From positions 341,567-405,566 of the forward strand of contig NZ_KN050766.1 in assembly GCF_000745855.1 (NCBI RefSeq): a DNA stretch of 64,000 nucleotides, read 5' to 3'. Numbering within the stretch: the stretch's first letter is position 1; every line of letters begins with the position of its first letter. A model generated the notes under the pieces. The model made no database searches. It was given only the letters and a program-made list of their open reading frames with translations, and was not told the origin of the DNA. Positions 6,862-18,229 of this stretch are shown here, in pieces. The DNA is from Xenophilus azovorans DSM 13620. GTDB taxonomy: Bacteria; Pseudomonadota; Gammaproteobacteria; Burkholderiales; Burkholderiaceae_C. A program made the position numbers and the translations under genes.

Positions 6862-8286
6862 TCAGACCAGCCGCTGGATGCGCTTGTGGCGCCACACCAG
6901 CCGGTAGTAGGCCGCCTGCAGCGCGAAGATGGCGAGGAAGGCCGCCGGGTAGGCGTACCAGACGCCCTCCAGCCCGATGCGCCGGCTCATCACCCAGGCC
7001 ACCGGCACCTCGACCAGCGCCAGGCACAAGATCGAGATCAGCGTGGGCACCAGCACGGAGCCGCTGGCGCGCATGATGCCGGCCAGCGCCGAGCCCATGC
7101 CGAAGATCACCGTGCTCCACAGCATCACGTGCAGCAGCGTCTGCGCCACCTCGATCACCTCCGGACGGGTGATGAACAGGCCCATCAGCGGCCGCGAGAA
7201 CAGGTAGCCCAGCAGCACCAGCGCGCCGGTGAGCAGCAGGTTCATCAGCAGCGCCGTGCGCGTGATGGCGCCCAGGCGGTCGGCATGCCCCGCGCCGATG
7301 GCCTGCGCGCCGAGGATCGAGGCGGTGATGGCGATGGAGATGGCCGGGAACTGCACGTAGGCCACCACCTGGTTCACCGCGCCGTAGGCGGCCGTGGCGT
7401 CGGAGCCGAAGCCGTTGACCAGCGACAGCAGCGCCAGCTCGGCCAGCGACACCACGATCATCTGCACGCCGGTGGGCACGCCCAGGCGCAGCACCGCCAC
7501 CAGCAGCGCCGGGCGGATGCGGATCTCCTTCAGGAACGCCGCGTCCGGCGCGAGCGGGCTCTTCTTGCGCCGCAGGTGCCAGCCCAGCCACAGCGTGGCG
7601 ACCACGAAGGCCACCACCGAGGCCCAGGCGCCGCTGGCCACGCCGAGCTGCGGCAGCCCGGCCCAGCCGCGGATCAGCGCCGGCGTGAGCACCAGGCCGA
7701 CCGTGGTCGAGATCATCAGCGTGAGCATCGGCGCGATGGTGTCGCCTACGCCGCGCAGCATCGCGGTGGACAGCAGGAACACGAACAGGCCCGGCATCGC
7801 CACCAGCATGATGCGCGCGTAGCCGGTGGCGTCCGGCAGGATGTCCGGCGGCGTGCCCAGCGCCTTGAGCAGCGGCGTGGTGAAGGCGCCGCCGAAGACC
7901 GCCACCAGCAGCCCGAACACCAGCACCACCGCCAGCGCCGTGCCGGCGATGGCGCGCGCCTTGGCCACGTCGCGCGCGCCCCAGGCCTGGCCGATCAGCA
8001 CCGAGGCGCCGGCGCCCAGGCCGATGATGAAGGCGATGAAGAAGAACAGCAGCGGGAAGAAGCCCGAGACCGCCGCCAGCGCCTTCACGCCGATCATCTG
8101 GCCCAGGTAGATGTTGTTCAGCGTGCCCGAGAGCGACTGCAGGATGTTGGAGGCGAGCATCGGCACCAGGAAGACCAGGAAGGTCTTCCACAGGGGCCGG
8201 CTGCCGGTGATGGCCGGCGCGCGGGCGCCGGAGGGCGGGGCGGCGGGGCTGCTGGCCCCTGCGCCCGGAGAGGAGGGCTGGGTCAC
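6862..8286 (-). CDS. MATE family efflux transporter
   Basis: This 474-residue inner-membrane protein has twelve hydrophobic segments arranged as two similar halves. Each half begins with the MATE pattern; the first half has PMLASNILQSLSGTLNNIYLG and the second PTGVQMIVVSLAE. MATE proteins expel cationic drugs and metabolites using proton or sodium gradients. The first 30 residues are Pro/Ala/Ser rich and cytoplasmic. It probably heads an operon with the broken CPA2 antiporter. Specific substrates cannot be inferred. Confidence 0.9.
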   Translation of the reverse strand: MTQPSSPGAGASSPAAPPSGARAPAITGSRPLWKTFLVFLVPMLASNILQSLSGTLNNIYLGQMIGVKALAAVSGFFPLLFFFIAFIIGLGAGASVLIGQAWGARDVAKARAIAGTALAVVLVFGLLVAVFGGAFTTPLLKALGTPPDILPDATGYARIMLVAMPGLFVFLLSTAMLRGVGDTIAPMLTLMISTTVGLVLTPALIRGWAGLPQLGVASGAWASVVAFVVATLWLGWHLRRKKSPLAPDAAFLKEIRIRPALLVAVLRLGVPTGVQMIVVSLAELALLSLVNGFGSDATAAYGAVNQVVAYVQFPAISIAITASILGAQAIGAGHADRLGAITRTALLMNLLLTGALVLLGYLFSRPLMGLFITRPEVIEVAQTLLHVMLWSTVIFGMGSALAGIMRASGSVLVPTLISILCLALVEVPVAWVMSRRIGLEGVWYAYPAAFLAIFALQAAYYRLVWRHKRIQRLV

Positions 8287-8364
8287 GGATGCGATGCGCG
8301 GCCGGCGGCGGTGCGCCGGCTGCGCCCTGTGGGTGTGGTTGTTGTTGTGGAGATGTGCGGGCGG

Positions 8365-8916
8365 TCAGGCCGCGGCCCAGCTCGGCGCCGCCAGTTTCTG
8401 CGCGTAGGCGGCCACGTCTTCGGGCCAGCCCTCGATCTGCGCCTGGAAGCGCTCTCGCTCGCCGGCGAAGAGGGCGCGCGCGGCTTCCTCGAAGCCGGGC
8501 AGGTCGCCCGCCATCACGGTCATGAAGCGGTAGGCGGCCTCGCGGGCGGCGCGCACGCTGTCGCGCTCGGCATAGTTGCGGCGGGCCTCGTCGATCAGCC
8601 TGCGCAGCGCGACCGAGGCGCCGCCCGGCTGGCGGCTGAGCCAGTCCCAGTGGCGCGGCAGCAGCGTCACCTCGCGCGCGACCACGCCCAGGCGCGGCCG
8701 GCCGACGCCGCGCGGCGCCTCCTCGGCCGGCGCTGCGGCATCGGACGAGTCGGGGCGCAGGTCCAGGTCGAGGCGCTCGCCGGTGCGGTCGTCGAACACG
8801 AACACCGAGGCGGCGTCGGGGCGCTGGCGCACGCTGGCCATCACCTGCGCGGCGTCGCCGGAGGCGATGCGGTCGAAATCGAGGAACGCGGTCAGAAAAG
8901 AAGGTGCGTCGGACAT
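8365..8916 (-). CDS. DUF2239 family protein
   Basis: This 183-residue soluble protein has the layout known for DUF2239. An N-terminal segment ends in VFVFDDRTGERLDLDLR, the middle has GRPRLGVVAREVTLLPRHWDWL, and a helical C-terminus has YRFMTVMAGDLPGFEEA. The biochemical role of the family is unknown. The gene stands alone, 77 bases from the MATE start and divergent from the pqi operon with a 66-base AT-richer gap holding the likely promoters. Confidence 0.8.
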   Translation of the reverse strand: MSDAPSFLTAFLDFDRIASGDAAQVMASVRQRPDAASVFVFDDRTGERLDLDLRPDSSDAAAPAEEAPRGVGRPRLGVVAREVTLLPRHWDWLSRQPGGASVALRRLIDEARRNYAERDSVRAAREAAYRFMTVMAGDLPGFEEAARALFAGERERFQAQIEGWPEDVAAYAQKLAAPSWAAA

Positions 8917-12585: not shown

Positions 12586-13683
12586 TCAGCGCAGCAGCGG
12601 GGGCTCCTGGCGCCAGCGCGGCGGCAGCAGGTCGAACAGCGGCGTGCGGTCGCGCTGCAGGGGCAGGGCGGCCGGGGCGGCGACGTCCGGCCGCGGCCAG
12701 GCGGATGCGATGTCCAGCGCCGCCAGCTCGCGCATCCAGGCCACGTCGATCTGTCCGCCCGGCGCCGGCCGCGAGGTGATGAGCGCCAGCATGCGCTGCG
12801 CCTGCACGTTGCCCGCCTGCGCCGCCAGCTGGTAGAGCCGGATCGCCTCCGCGAAGTTGGCGGGCACGCCCTCGCCGCGATGGAAGCGCTGCGCCATCGC
12901 CAGCCACTGCTCGCCGGCCGAGGCGGCGCGCGAGCGCGGCGCGGGCAGGGGTGCGAGGCGCTGGCGAAGCAGTTGCACGTTGGCCGCCGCGGCAGGCGAG
13001 CGCGCTGCCGCCGACTCGAAGCTGCGCGCCGCGTCTTCCGGCCGGTCTTCGGCGAGCTGGGCGAAGCCCTGCTCGATCCGGGCCGCCGCATTGCCGCCGC
13101 GCGCGGCACGGGCCAGCAGCGCCTGCTGGCGGGCCTCCTGGCGGTGCGCCGCCGCGTCGCTGCCGGCGTGCGGCGCGGCCGAGGGCGGCGCCAGCCGTTC
13201 GCCCAGCAGCCACTCCAGGTACTGCGCGCGCGGCGCATCGACGGCGCGCAGCGCGGCGATCCAGCGCCGCGCCGCGGCCGGGTCGGCGGCGCCGCCGTCG
13301 CATGCCTCGATGGCGCACCAGGCCAGCCCGGCGGCGGCCATCGTCTCGCCCTGCGTGTAGGCCTGCGTCATCCAGCGGCGCGCCTCGCCCGGGCGGGTGC
13401 CGGGCACGATGCCGTTGAGGTGGAGCAGGGCCAGCCGCCAGGCGGCCTGGCGGCTGGCCGTGCCGCCGCCGGCCGCCAGCGCGCGCAGGTGCTGCAGCTC
13501 GGCCGCCAGGGCCGGGTCGTCCGGCCCGGCCAGCCGCGGCGCCGTGCGCTCGATCTGGGCGGGGTCGACCCCCGGCGCGGGCGGCGGCAGCGGCTGGACG
13601 CGCGCGGAGGCGCCGAGCGCGGCGGCGGCCAGCAGCACCGCCAGCGCCGGGCCGCGCCGGTGCGTGGGGCATCGCGCAGCCAT
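12586..13683 (-). CDS. Sel1-like repeat protein, secreted
   Basis: A 365-residue protein from the ATG at 13683, chosen because a signal peptide (PALAVLLAAAALGASARVQ) starts right after it. The mature part is helical with Sel1/TPR-like units, clearest near residues 95-135 (ARRWMTQAYTQGETMAAAGLA) and 285-320 (EAIRLYQLAAQAGNVQAQRM). Such repeats usually bind partner proteins. It sits seven bases after the CsgG-like gene and is the last gene of a four-gene operon, so it may be an assembly or scaffold factor for that system. No catalytic motif is seen. Confidence 0.75.
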   Translation of the reverse strand: MAARCPTHRRGPALAVLLAAAALGASARVQPLPPPAPGVDPAQIERTAPRLAGPDDPALAAELQHLRALAAGGGTASRQAAWRLALLHLNGIVPGTRPGEARRWMTQAYTQGETMAAAGLAWCAIEACDGGAADPAAARRWIAALRAVDAPRAQYLEWLLGERLAPPSAAPHAGSDAAAHRQEARQQALLARAARGGNAAARIEQGFAQLAEDRPEDAARSFESAAARSPAAAANVQLLRQRLAPLPAPRSRAASAGEQWLAMAQRFHRGEGVPANFAEAIRLYQLAAQAGNVQAQRMLALITSRPAPGGQIDVAWMRELAALDIASAWPRPDVAAPAALPLQRDRTPLFDLLPPRWRQEPPLLR

Positions 13684-13690
13684 CGCCGCC

Positions 13691-15382
13691 TCACCGGCGA
13701 GGGGCCGCGGCGGCGGCCGGGCGGGGCGGCGCCACCGTCCACTGCAGCGCGGCGCGGCCGAAGCCCTCGGCGCCCAGCGCCTGGGTGAAGGCATCGTCGA
13801 CCGCGGCGGCGCTCCGCACGCTGGCGATCGGCTCCAGCGCCGGGCCGCGCAGGGCCTCGGGCAACTGGTCCGTCACCTCGTCCTCGGTGGCGTAGCAGAC
13901 CACGCCCTGGCGGCCTGGGCCGCCGCCGTCGAGCACGAAGGCCGGCGAGGGACTCATCCAGTCCGGCAGCCGGGCCGCGATGCCGGCCGGCACGGCGCTG
14001 GCCGAGTTCACGTCGTTCGGCGTCAGGCGCATGACCACGCCGCGCTCCTCCCACATGTAGCAGTACAGGAAGGAGGCGCGCGAGACGGTGGCCGACAGGA
14101 AGATCTGCTCGCCGGCCTCGAAGGCGTCGCGGCCCGTCATGACGTTCTCGATCTGCATGTCGATGCGGCGCGGCTCGGGCGGGCTGCCCAGCGGCTGCAC
14201 CGGGTGCGCGGACGCGACCTCCGAGGCCGGCGGCACCGGCAGCGGCGTGCTGCTGGTGGGCGCCCAGCCGATGCGCGCCAGGTGGCCCTGCGCGTCCAGG
14301 CCGACGAAGCCGCCCAGCGCCTTCTCGTAGGTGGGGAAGTTCAGCTCGCCGCTGGCCGGCATGCCGCGGTCGGTCTGGAAGCGCGCCAGCGCCTCGCGCA
14401 GTTGCGGCGACTGCAGCGGCAGCGGCTGCGCCTGCGCGGGCAGGTAGCCCTGCATCACCAGCGACTGCTGCACCAGGGCCGAGCGCGTCTGCGCCGCGCC
14501 TTCCTCGTACCAGTCGCGCATGGTGCGCTGGAACTCGGGGTGCGCCTGGTCCAGCGTGAGGCACTGCCAGTAGGGCACGCGCGCCCACTTGCCCACCAGC
14601 TCGATGGTGGCCAGCTCGACCAGCGTGCGCATGGCGGCGCCGGCGCCCTGGGTGTAGTCGCGCCCGATGGTGAACTGCACCCCGTACGAGCCGATGCGCC
14701 CGGCCAGGTCCAGCCCTTCGCCGCCAGTGCCGATGATGACCTCGTTGGCCGAGTCCAGGCCGGGGATCAGCGTGCGCGTGCGGAAGTCGCCCAGGTGCAG
14801 CTCCAGCGCCACCAGCGCCGCGTTGCGGCTGCGGCTGTAGCCGGTCTCCAGCCGCGAGGCCGAGGTGCCGAAGTCGGCATGGCCGCTGAGCACGTTCTGG
14901 TCGAGGTAGGAGATCGCGCCCGAGAAGTACAGGCCCGGGCGCTGGAGCTGGAGCTGGTTGTTGTTCAGCAGGATGGTGGTCAGCGTCTGCACCGTGTCCT
15001 GGCGCGCCAGCTCGACCTCGTAGTCGACGTAGCGGAAGGCATTGCTGGTGCGCGACATCTGCGACAGGGCCGTGATGATCATGTCCTTGGTCGCCACCGG
15101 CATCTTGCCGGAGTAGTCGGGGATCTGCTTGCTGGTGACCAGCGTGGTCGGCAGCTCGGCGGCGCGCAGCATGCGGTCCATGCAGGCCAGCGACTCGGAG
15201 AAGCTGGACACCGAGCGCACCGGCCGGTTGTTGGGCCGGTCGGCGACGTGCGCGTGCGACTGGAAGGCCTTGTCGCGCCGCGCATCCATCGGCATGGCGC
15301 AGCCCGCCAGCAGGACGACGGCGGCCAGGCCCAGTACGCCCAGGTGCGCGAGGCCCGCCGGACGCGGTGGTCGGTGGTTCAT
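13691..15382 (-). CDS. CsgG/HfaB-like outer-membrane lipoprotein with C-terminal DUF4384-like domain
   Basis: A 563-residue lipoprotein with Cys28 in LLAGC. Residues about 55-270 follow the CsgG pattern: MIITALSQMSRTSNAFRYVDYE, a GLYFSGAISYLDQNVLSG strand pair, a serine/arginine-rich stretch, an ALVALELHLGDFRT strand, and an end ATIELVGKWARVPYW. CsgG forms a nine-subunit export channel for curli subunits. A putative peptidoglycan-binding-like stretch follows (REALARFQTDRGMPASGELNFPTYEKAL, about 330-365), then a DUF4384-like domain (GEQIFLSATVSRASFLYCYM, about 415-500). E. coli CsgG is half this length, so the additions are notable. It lies in an operon with two small secreted proteins. Confidence 0.75.
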   Translation of the reverse strand: MNHRPPRPAGLAHLGVLGLAAVVLLAGCAMPMDARRDKAFQSHAHVADRPNNRPVRSVSSFSESLACMDRMLRAAELPTTLVTSKQIPDYSGKMPVATKDMIITALSQMSRTSNAFRYVDYEVELARQDTVQTLTTILLNNNQLQLQRPGLYFSGAISYLDQNVLSGHADFGTSASRLETGYSRSRNAALVALELHLGDFRTRTLIPGLDSANEVIIGTGGEGLDLAGRIGSYGVQFTIGRDYTQGAGAAMRTLVELATIELVGKWARVPYWQCLTLDQAHPEFQRTMRDWYEEGAAQTRSALVQQSLVMQGYLPAQAQPLPLQSPQLREALARFQTDRGMPASGELNFPTYEKALGGFVGLDAQGHLARIGWAPTSSTPLPVPPASEVASAHPVQPLGSPPEPRRIDMQIENVMTGRDAFEAGEQIFLSATVSRASFLYCYMWEERGVVMRLTPNDVNSASAVPAGIAARLPDWMSPSPAFVLDGGGPGRQGVVCYATEDEVTDQLPEALRGPALEPIASVRSAAAVDDAFTQALGAEGFGRAALQWTVAPPRPAAAAAPRR

Positions 15383-15420
15383 GGCATGTCTCCCTGCGGC
15401 AGGAAAAAGGTGGCTGCCTG

Positions 15421-15825
15421 CTAGCGGCAGACGTTGACCACGTCGCCGCGCAGCACGACGACCTGGTCCTGGCCCTTGGGGCCGTACTGGCTGAAGCCGT
15501 TGCCGGCCGGCGCGGCGGCGCCCAGGTCCTGGATGCAGGTCTTGTTCATGCCTTCGCTGGCGGCCTGCGTCGTCAGGTCCTTGTCGGTGCGCATGCCGGC
15601 CGGGTTGCCCATGGCCTTGGACTCGAAGCGCACCACGCGGGCGCGCAGCCAGCTCGGCATGCCGTCGGTGAGCACGGCGTCGGACGAGCGCGGCGCCGGC
15701 GCGGTCGGCAGCATGTTCACGTTCTGCTTCTGCGTCAGGACGACGGGGTCCTCGCCGGGAGCGGCCCAGGCGAGGGCGGGTGCGGCCAGGGCCAGCCAGG
15801 CGGCGGGAAGGCGGGAGGCTCTCAT
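15421..15825 (-). CDS. Small secreted protein of the CsgG-like operon
   Basis: A 134-residue protein starting at the ATG at 15825 with a clear signal peptide (LPAAWLALAAPALAWAAPG). The mature part of about 110 residues is not recognised; it holds two cysteines (KTCIQDLG and the final VCR) that could form a disulfide. It lies between the repeat protein and the CsgG-like lipoprotein, the position of CsgE/CsgF-type accessory factors in curli operons, but no sequence resemblance to those can be claimed by eye. A periplasmic or surface chaperone or nucleator role is only a guess. Confidence 0.7.
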   Translation of the reverse strand: MRASRLPAAWLALAAPALAWAAPGEDPVVLTQKQNVNMLPTAPAPRSSDAVLTDGMPSWLRARVVRFESKAMGNPAGMRTDKDLTTQAASEGMNKTCIQDLGAAAPAGNGFSQYGPKGQDQVVVLRGDVVNVCR

Positions 15826-15902
15826 GACGGACTCCTCGGGGGCGCGGGAGGAAGGGGCCCCGGCCGCGCGCACGCCGGGGCGCGCGGGCCGGAGCGGGCT
15901 CG

Positions 15903-16379
15903 TCAGCGGCCGTGCTTGTCGGCGCGGCGCTCGTACACGCCCGTGCAGGTCACGCAGGCGTTGTTGGAGGCGATGTTCTGGATCGCCAGCGACTTGGCGC
16001 CGTCGGCCAGGTTGCTCACATGCGCGCCGTCGCCCAGCGTGATCTGCGTGGACTTGCCGGCGATCGTCACGTCGCCCAGGTTGGACGAGACGTTCTGGCT
16101 GGCGATGGCGTCGTGGCCCTTGGCTTCGTTCGTGAACGAGCTGTTCTTGGTCGCCACGACCTGCAGCGACTGGGCGCGGCTCTCGACCTGCACGTTGCCC
16201 GCGTTGCTGGCCAGGTTCTGGTTGGCGAAGGTGTCGGCGTTCGACTTGTTCGACACCGACGTGTTCTTCAGCACCGCGATCTGGGTCGACGTGCCGTCGA
16301 TGTTGATGCCGGTGGACGGGCCGGTGGCGAGTGCCGTCCCGGAGGCCAGCACGGCGGCAATGACAAGAAGCTTCTTCAT
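15903..16379 (-). CDS. Secreted Ser/Gln/Asn repeat protein, candidate amyloid-like subunit
   Basis: A 158-residue protein with a signal peptide (KKLLVIAAVLASGTALA). The mature part has three repeats of about 39 residues: each begins S-x-Q-[IV], contains [ST]-x-[VF]-[ST]-N, and ends with A-x-Q-N-[LVI]-[AS]-SN followed by G-[ND]-V (third repeat ends NACV). Regular Ser, Gln and Asn spacing is reminiscent of curlin repeats (S-x5-Q-x4-N-x5-Q), though longer. After the repeats comes CVTC and a basic end. It is first in the operon, right where a major fibre subunit would be expected. Confidence 0.75.
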   Translation of the reverse strand: MKKLLVIAAVLASGTALATGPSTGINIDGTSTQIAVLKNTSVSNKSNADTFANQNLASNAGNVQVESRAQSLQVVATKNSSFTNEAKGHDAIASQNVSSNLGDVTIAGKSTQITLGDGAHVSNLADGAKSLAIQNIASNNACVTCTGVYERRADKHGR

Positions 16380-17539: not shown

Positions 17540-18229
17540 ATGCCTTGCTCGGCGGGACGGCGGCGTTGGCTTGCCGCGGGTGCGCTGCTCGCCGCCGCAC
17601 TGATCGGCGCGCGGGCGCTGCGGGCGCCCCGCCCGGAGGTCGACGACGACGAGGCGGCCCTGCAGCGCCTGGCGGCCGACCTGCACGACGGCGTGGGCGC
17701 CCGGCTCGGCGCGCTGCTGGCCGCGCTCGATCCGCACGACGCCGCGCAGCGGCCGCTGTGCCTGGCGCTGCACGACTGCCTGCTGGAGCTGCAGATGGCG
17801 GTGGACGACATCGACGTCTTCGACGGCGAGGCCGTGCCCGAGCGCCTGGGCCGGCTGCGCCACCGCATGCAGCCGGCGCTGGACCGCCTGGGCATCCGGC
17901 TGGAGTGGCAGGTCTCGCCCGACGGCCTGGGCGTGGGCGGCGTGCGGGCGCGCGAGGTGGGACGCATCGCGCAGGAGGCGCTGTCGAACGTGCTGCGCCA
18001 CGCGCAGGCCACCAAGGTGGCGTTCCGCTGGGGCGCGGACGCGCGCGGCCGTCCCACGCTGCAGGTGGTGGACGACGGCGTCGGCCTGGCGCCGCCCGCC
18101 CGGGCGCCCGGCCGCGGGCTGGCCGGCATGGGCCGCCGCGCACAGCGCATCGGCGGCGAACTGCAGGCGATGCCGCTGGCGCCGCACGGCACCGCGGTGC
18201 TGCTGCGGCTGCCCGCCGGCCCCGGCTGA
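17540..18229 (+). CDS. Histidine kinase, NarX-like (HisKA_3)
   Basis: A short kinase of 229 residues. One N-terminal hydrophobic segment (WLAAGALLAAALIGARAL) may anchor it. The HisKA_3 box LAADLHDGVGARLGALL holds the phosphorylated His; the ATPase domain has the N-box EALSNVLRHAQATKV, DDGVGL and GRGLAGMGRRAQRIGG. There is no periplasmic sensor domain, so it either senses within the membrane or works with other proteins. It is paired with the upstream LuxR-type regulator. The short length compared with NarX is notable but common among such kinases. Confidence 0.9.
   Translation: MPCSAGRRRWLAAGALLAAALIGARALRAPRPEVDDDEAALQRLAADLHDGVGARLGALLAALDPHDAAQRPLCLALHDCLLELQMAVDDIDVFDGEAVPERLGRLRHRMQPALDRLGIRLEWQVSPDGLGVGGVRAREVGRIAQEALSNVLRHAQATKVAFRWGADARGRPTLQVVDDGVGLAPPARAPGRGLAGMGRRAQRIGGELQAMPLAPHGTAVLLRLPAGPG

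Follow-up and report, generated by a model that had tools for sequence, protein, structure and literature searches.

A 64,000-nucleotide stretch of the genome of Xenophilus azovorans DSM 13620 (the window; contig segment 341567-405566 of a 6.5 Mb genome) carries on its minus strand, at positions 12586-16379, an operon of four genes that may encode a secretion system for a functional amyloid. The products are here called P1, P2, P3 and P4 in order of transcription (P1 to P2 to P3 to P4), and P5 is the product of a divergent regulatory gene (Table 1). The preliminary description of this DNA had recorded four genes in one direction, for a repeat protein, a small protein with two cysteines, a lipoprotein and a Sel1-repeat protein. 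All four open reading frames (ORFs) are present, and together with the domain matches of their products they confirm this gene content.

The linkage of the four genes is far beyond chance. Searching genome contigs for the P3 family gave 226 relatives, and the best 80 of these 226 loci were analysed; they represent fewer than 80 genomes, as Ottowia beijingensis GCS-AN-3, Variovorax sp. PCZ-1 and the metagenome-assembled genome (MAG) FW021_bin.27, and so at least three genomes, occur twice. P1 was found in 77 of the 80 loci, P2 in 78, P4 in 76 and P5 in 62. Where a locus was eligible, that is, had enough flanking sequence on the needed side of P3, the other operon genes were adjacent to P3 on the same strand without exception (P1 74/74, P2 77/77, P4 74/74), so that the gene order, which the preliminary description had proposed to look for in related genomes, was indeed recovered there. 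P5 was present in 57 of 64 eligible loci, and divergent and upstream in 54 of the 64. Neighbouring operon genes are separated by median gaps of 96, 82.5 and 117 bases in the retained loci. Identity of P3 to the window copy is only 43-62% among the 75 aligned relatives, and hence the gene order has been kept across much change. A group of ordinary hypothetical genes, or of chance neighbours, is ruled out by this linkage in eligible loci.

Named carriers of the operon are mostly Acidovorax, Polaromonas, Hydrogenophaga, Comamonas, Limnohabitans and similar, and it is also found in Xenophilus arseniciresistens YW8. The distribution is patchy. Sampling of the family covered 399 genomes and 141 genera, and a P3 at an expectation value (E) <= 1e-100 was detected in 40 of these genomes and 23 of these genera; in the host's own genus, 2 of 15 genomes have an orthologue. 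Two operon copies are carried by Variovorax sp. PCZ-1 (L121 and L125; best-segment identity to P3 49 and 43%) and by the MAG FW021_bin.27 (L110 and L119; 51 and 48%). Records titled Pantoea, Cellvibrio and Lysobacter (L073, L116 and L128, the last two being contigs under 7 kb) carry the whole operon or part of it, for which mislabelling, contamination or transfer are candidate explanations.

P3 is well supported as a CsgG/HfaB-type protein by its predicted fold. The alignment used for P3 holds 76 sequences (P3 itself and 75 of 80 P3 proteins, the others having been excluded for their length or for want of a closed end), and a lipobox, with Cys28 in P3, is kept in 90% or more of them. A monomer model made by AlphaFold from these sequences, with a predicted local distance difference test score (pLDDT) of 77.1 and a predicted template modelling score (pTM) of 0.56, has two long beta-hairpins lying between helices. 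When the model was compared with the PDB, 25 of 25 chains at E <= 0.001 were CsgG, the best being 6l7a_A (E 7.6e-13, probability 1.00), and at the level of the predicted monomer fold the CsgG-like core of the preliminary description is therefore upheld. Profile comparison by hhalign of the 76 sequences with nine HfaB/CsgG sequences gave a probability of 94.0 (E 1.4e-7), while a control, the P2 profile against the same set, gave 0.5. The NCBIfam model of HfaB matches P3 weakly (E 2.4e-5), the score of 23.7 bits lying far below the model's cut-off of 300, and in a whole-genome HfaB search P3 appeared at E 0.06 only. Two further parts, both C-terminal to the pore core, had been described as fused to it. 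DUF4384 is matched above its cut-off, and in 76/76 members of the alignment; PG_binding_1 reaches 19.5 bits in P3 against a cut-off of 23 bits, and 75/76 members match it at E <= 10.

P1 has a signal peptide, as judged by eye, and its description as a repeat protein is substantiated by three repeats of 39-41 residues. The P1 alignment comprises P1 and 51 of 75 length-passing P1 proteins, with longer variants and wrong-looking starts left out; starts of the orthologues were set by rule, and some are probably wrong. Gapped self-alignment of the profile scored 102.7, against 17.2 +/- 3.4 in 200 column shuffles (z = 25), at offsets of 39, 40 and 41, and the single sequence gave z = 9.9. This procedure replaced an ungapped autocorrelation of the single P1 sequence, which was not significant, we would guess because its lags mix 39 and 41. 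Fifteen columns, five per repeat, are Gln or Asn in at least 80% of the 52 aligned proteins (Q33 N44 Q54 N55 N59 in the first repeat, Q73 N84 Q95 N96 N100 in the second and Q112 N123 Q134 N135 N139 in the third). The conserved spacing within repeats is Q-X10-N-X10-(N/Q), and the six conserved Q/N pairs 11 apart were matched by 58 of 20,000 random placements. P1 thus shows a trait of functional amyloids, imperfect repeats with Q/N-X10-Q/N; passages of PMC6173800 report this pattern for CsgA, FapB and FapC, and describe FapC as having three 37-residue repeats and a CxxC (PMC6173800).

Repeat number in P1 orthologues varies from 1 to 5 by motif count, low counts coming partly from cut frames, and 58 of 82 have three. 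A C-terminal CxxC is present in 59 of the 82 extracted orthologues, and both of its Cys columns are conserved at 90% or more in the 52-row alignment. The P1 model is all-beta (pLDDT 74.8, pTM 0.68). Pfam matched the window P1 to no family, and the curlin repeat PF07012 was not among the best 25 of 51 families for the P1 alignment. The P1 sequence has no significant match to FapC or CsgA, and its profile gave four matches at E <= 10 among PDB sequences, none of them FapC.

The two cysteines noted earlier in P2 have proved to be a lasting feature of the family, as 78 of 83 extracted orthologues have exactly two in the mature part, and C97 and C133 are invariant across 37 aligned sequences (P2 and 36 of 77 P2 proteins). 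Close to the N-terminus of the mature protein, 77 of 83 orthologues have the motif PG[EST]D, and the penultimate residue is Cys in 82 of 83. The window P2 matches no family, and the 37 P2 sequences give stray single Pfam matches, none to CsgE or CsgF. According to passages of PMC7304575, the N-terminal 27 residues of CsgF line the upper CsgG channel (PMC7304575), and by analogy we would guess that the conserved start of P2 may line the pore as CsgF does. On the strand of the operon, the boundary of P2 and P3 bears a terminator-like hairpin with a T run (15414-15430); it is weak, with 5 pairs, and might allow more subunits than pores to be made. A promoter scan found none (0.1 expected).

P4 matches Sel1 repeats (E 1.5e-9), and an alternative upstream ATG at 13794 would make it overlap P3. 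P5 matches the CsgD model through its DNA-binding part only. In the short kinase-like gene that follows P5, Pfam finds only an ATPase part, and sensing of the signal may therefore take place elsewhere. The Pfam scan of other neighbours identified PqiA, an ABC auxiliary lipoprotein, Tex and HipA.

Table 1. Coordinates in the window of the operon, its parts and the divergent regulatory genes.
Feature	Position	Strand	Description	Basis
P1	15903..16379	-	158 amino acid (aa) secreted repeat protein, proposed exported subunit	
P1 repeat 1	16191..16307	-	residues 25-63	gapped self-alignment and conserved Q/N columns
P1 repeat 2	16068..16190	-	residues 64-104	gapped self-alignment and conserved Q/N columns
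P1 repeat 3	15954..16067	-	residues 105-142	gapped self-alignment and conserved Q/N columns
P1 C-terminal CxxC	15945..15956	-	residues 142-145	orthologue comparison
P2	15421..15825	-	134 aa small secreted protein, proposed pore partner or minor subunit	
P3	13691..15382	-	563 aa predicted lipoprotein, CsgG/HfaB-like, with extra C-terminal domains	
P3 CsgG/HfaB-like core	14513..15217	-	residues about 56-290	NCBIfam HfaB, fold match, hhalign
P3 predicted beta-hairpins	14651..14932	-	putative barrel; strands 151-174/178-199 and 204-230/233-244	DSSP on model
P3 PG_binding_1-like part	14324..14473	-	residues 304-353	Pfam, below cut-off
P3 DUF4384 part	13880..14122	-	residues 421-501	Pfam, E 1.2e-9
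P4	12586..13683	-	365 aa Sel1-repeat protein	signal peptide by eye
P5	16623..17519	+	divergent NarL/LuxR-type response regulator, start uncertain	Response_reg and GerE
Histidine-kinase-like gene 3' of P5	17540..18229	+	start chosen by the authors	HATPase_c, E 3.5e-7 on 17600-18226

Relatives of the system also occur beyond the order. A P3-family match (E <= 1e-5) was obtained in 20 of 398 genomes of the phylum, of which 5 belong to the family, 1 to the order and 14 lie beyond it, and the P3 loci of 10 of these 14 genomes were examined (L192-L201). A P2-like gene (E < 1e-3) accompanies P3 in 6 of the 10 loci and a P1-like repeat gene (E < 0.01) in 5 of the 10, the case at L195 being weaker and L198, L199 and L201 having none at the E limits. 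In the distant P1-like proteins the repeats are similar in length to those of P1. Two loci within the order whose P3 is not a close orthologue, L031 and L032, gave none at the same limits, and L031 suggests both kinds of gene by eye. An OmpA-type gene is nearby in both loci tested (L193 and L031). At L201, a protein with a caspase domain (Peptidase_C14) and a PDZ domain is encoded at 7520-8776, about 0.8 kb behind the distant P3; excerpts of papers on cyanobacterial caspase homologues mention DUF4384.

We consider it somewhat probable that the operon encodes a CsgG/HfaB-type pore, tied to peptidoglycan, that exports the beta-solenoid P1, which then polymerises on the cell surface. P1 and P2 would reach the periplasm by way of their Sec signals, recognised by eye. 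P3 would be lipidated and form a CsgG-like ring in the outer membrane, in which the beta-hairpins of the monomer model would build the barrel. Its PG_binding_1-like part, and probably DUF4384 and P4, would extend into the periplasm and either anchor the ring in peptidoglycan or retain substrates. P1 would cross the pore unfolded, stack its three repeats into a beta-solenoid and polymerise via its Gln/Asn ladders into a functional amyloid or amyloid-like fibre. P2, from its position and cysteines, could be the pore partner or the first subunit, comparable to CsgF and CsgB in curli. P5 and the kinase, which are linked to the operon, might activate it, a role that CsgD has in curli systems. The curli-like plan of the preliminary description is partly supported: it agrees with the CsgG fold of the P3 model, with the profile homology of P3 to HfaB/CsgG, with the gene order in relatives and with a host in which no curlin repeat, CsgE or CsgF was detected at E <= 0.1. 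Its export and amyloid parts stay putative.

Several results weigh against this reading. Pfam CsgG (PF03783) matched 0 of the 76 P3 members at E <= 10, so that this check, which the preliminary description had proposed, failed. The 76 sequences gave a weak hhalign probability of 45 against four CsgG-family sequences, and hydrophobic alternation was above shuffles in 0 of the 4 strands of the P3 hairpins. When the P1 spacing could take any value from 5 to 20, 715 of 20,000 random placements did equally well. The P1 model gave 0 of 91 PDB matches at E <= 0.001, with FapC at rank 2 (E 0.077) and CsgA at rank 9 (E 0.43), both with template modelling (TM) scores below 0.2, and the curlin motif QxGxxN is nearly absent from P1 (1 found, 8.2 expected). 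Beyond the order, 4 of the 10 loci, including L200, which ends at P3, have no P2-like gene at E < 1e-3, and the Q/N-X10-Q/N pattern was above shuffles in 0 of 10 distant P1-like proteins. It is our view that the predicted fold outweighs the absent Pfam CsgG match.

The lack of significant amphipathicity in the hairpins would suit a P3 that has the CsgG-like fold and no channel, and which, like PelC or LpoB, would instead form a ring or clamp on the periplasmic side of the outer membrane, with P1 and P2 acting in the periplasm. The PG_binding_1-like part of P3 agrees with such a role, as does the PelBC chain 9h80_A at rank 27 (E 2.9e-3) in the PDB comparison. However, the PelC match falls behind the best CsgG match by more than nine orders of magnitude, and the two long hairpins predicted are like those of the CsgG barrel; we regard a P3 that forms no channel as improbable.

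The relation to HfaB raises another explanation, in which P3 is a CsgG/HfaB-type pore and the surface structure made of P1 and P2 is a compact anchor rather than an amyloid, similar to that of the Caulobacter holdfast, which might for example attach a polysaccharide to the cell. HfaB is the sole NCBIfam family matching P3, and the hhalign probability rises from 45 to 94 once the set holds more HfaB sequences. P1 is short and mostly of three repeats, and conserved cysteines, as seen in P1 and P2, are in our judgement commoner in defined structures. The line between anchor and amyloid is a thin one, since HfaA is called amyloid-like in passages of PMC6707917 (PMC6707917). P1 and P2 are, however, not homologous to HfaA (hhalign 3.2 and 4.4), HfaA was not found in the genome at E <= 10, and no polysaccharide gene is among the neighbours scanned with Pfam, to which the search for genes of that kind was confined. 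We judge an anchor of this kind to be rather unlikely. It is very improbable, in our estimation, that P3 exports some other cargo and that P1 is a structural extra. Passages of PMC7738311 do report that MafA of Neisseria exports MafB, with a lipoprotein oligomer likened by its authors to CsgG (PMC7738311), but P1 and P2 adjoin P3 in every eligible locus, which makes them its natural cargo.

Within the host genome, no curlin repeat (PF07012), CsgE or CsgF was found at E <= 0.1, which agrees with the earlier observation that the plan is without csgE/F/A/B likeness. The genome has at least two further CsgG-like genes, on contigs C8 and C12. The set on C8 (L048 8475-16275) encodes a 1164 aa secreted protein, a 151 aa protein, a 390 aa CsgG-like lipoprotein, a 295 aa Sel1-like protein, a 130 aa two-Cys protein and an OmpA-type protein. 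It resembles the operon in running from a large secreted protein through a small secreted protein and a CsgG-like lipoprotein to a Sel1-like protein, and its pore family is homologous to P3 (hhalign 99.3). It differs in that the 1164 aa protein replaces P1, that DUF4384 and PG_binding_1 are unmatched at E <= 0.01, and that the Sel1 match, at 26.6, falls short of the cut-off of 30.7, in a protein without similarity to P4. Of the 15 genomes sampled in the genus, 14 gave weak P3 matches of the C8 kind (individual matches unchecked). On C12, the region L047 3092-9496 holds a better HfaB match than P3 (189 bits) beside a gene for a 1619 aa secreted protein, which has no Pfam match at E <= 0.01.

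The relation to HfaB, the Q/N-X10-Q/N spacing and CxxC of P1, and the divergent two-component regulator all go beyond the preliminary description. Among the full-text matches listed, a scope that leaves aside preprints and most subscription journals, we recognised no publication describing the operon, and a literature search for CsgG and DUF4384 together returned no paper. Bacterial amyloid surveys search with csg and fap profiles, as passages of PMC12822426 and PMC3521004 state (PMC12822426; PMC3521004). One of these covers curli and fap in GTDB and, in its section 10, mentions csgBAC operons in Burkholderiaceae and not the present arrangement (PMC12822426). The operon supplies an orphan CsgG-like pore with a likely substrate, partner and regulator. 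If the proposed reading is true, carriers of the operon would produce amyloid-type fibres even where, as in the host tested, no curlin repeat, CsgE or CsgF is found. For researchers studying or re-engineering CsgG, a pore that includes its own wall anchor would be useful. More tentatively, the operon could represent a third Gram-negative line of amyloid secretion, combining a Fap-like subunit, which has three 40-residue repeats laddered with Q/N and a CxxC, with a CsgG/HfaB-type channel that has its own peptidoglycan clamp and with no FapF, CsgE or CsgF. It would be patchy in its family, have relatives beyond the order and probably be missed by surveys based on csg and fap profiles.

Three known systems invite comparison. 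HfaABD, the Caulobacter holdfast anchor, was compared through HfaA and HfaB, HfaD-like frames being partial. It is alike in placing a CsgG-type lipoprotein beside small secreted proteins, and in the alignment of P3 with HfaB (NF037935) and CsgG sequences the stretches (F/Y)S..L.C and D(Y)(S/T)GK can be recognised. It differs in that P3 carries PG_binding_1 and DUF4384 behind the core, and that the operon adds a Sel1 gene and a divergent two-component system. Identity with the hfa operon is rejected, as the pore is related but the small proteins are not HfaA homologues and no HfaA was found in the genome at E <= 10.

Curli share with the operon a CsgG-like pore, by predicted fold, a repeat subunit laddered with Gln/Asn and a divergent LuxR-type regulator; CsgD is of the LuxR type and divergent from csgBAC. 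Repeats in curli are of about 22 residues, whereas those of P1 are of about 40. A plain curli operon is ruled out by P3 being unmatched by PF03783, by the scarcity of QxGxxN in P1 and by a host genome that gave no match to the curlin repeat, CsgE or CsgF at E <= 0.1. The Fap system of Pseudomonas differs in its pore, which is the trimeric FapF rather than a CsgG-like protein, and P1 has neither a sequence match nor a significant fold match to FapC; a Pfam scan of the four products found no FapF or FapD family, no search aimed at FapD or FapF having been made. What Fap and the operon have in common lies in the subunit, where most P1 orthologues have three repeats, each about 40 residues long, together with the Q/N-X10-Q/N spacing and a C-terminal CxxC.

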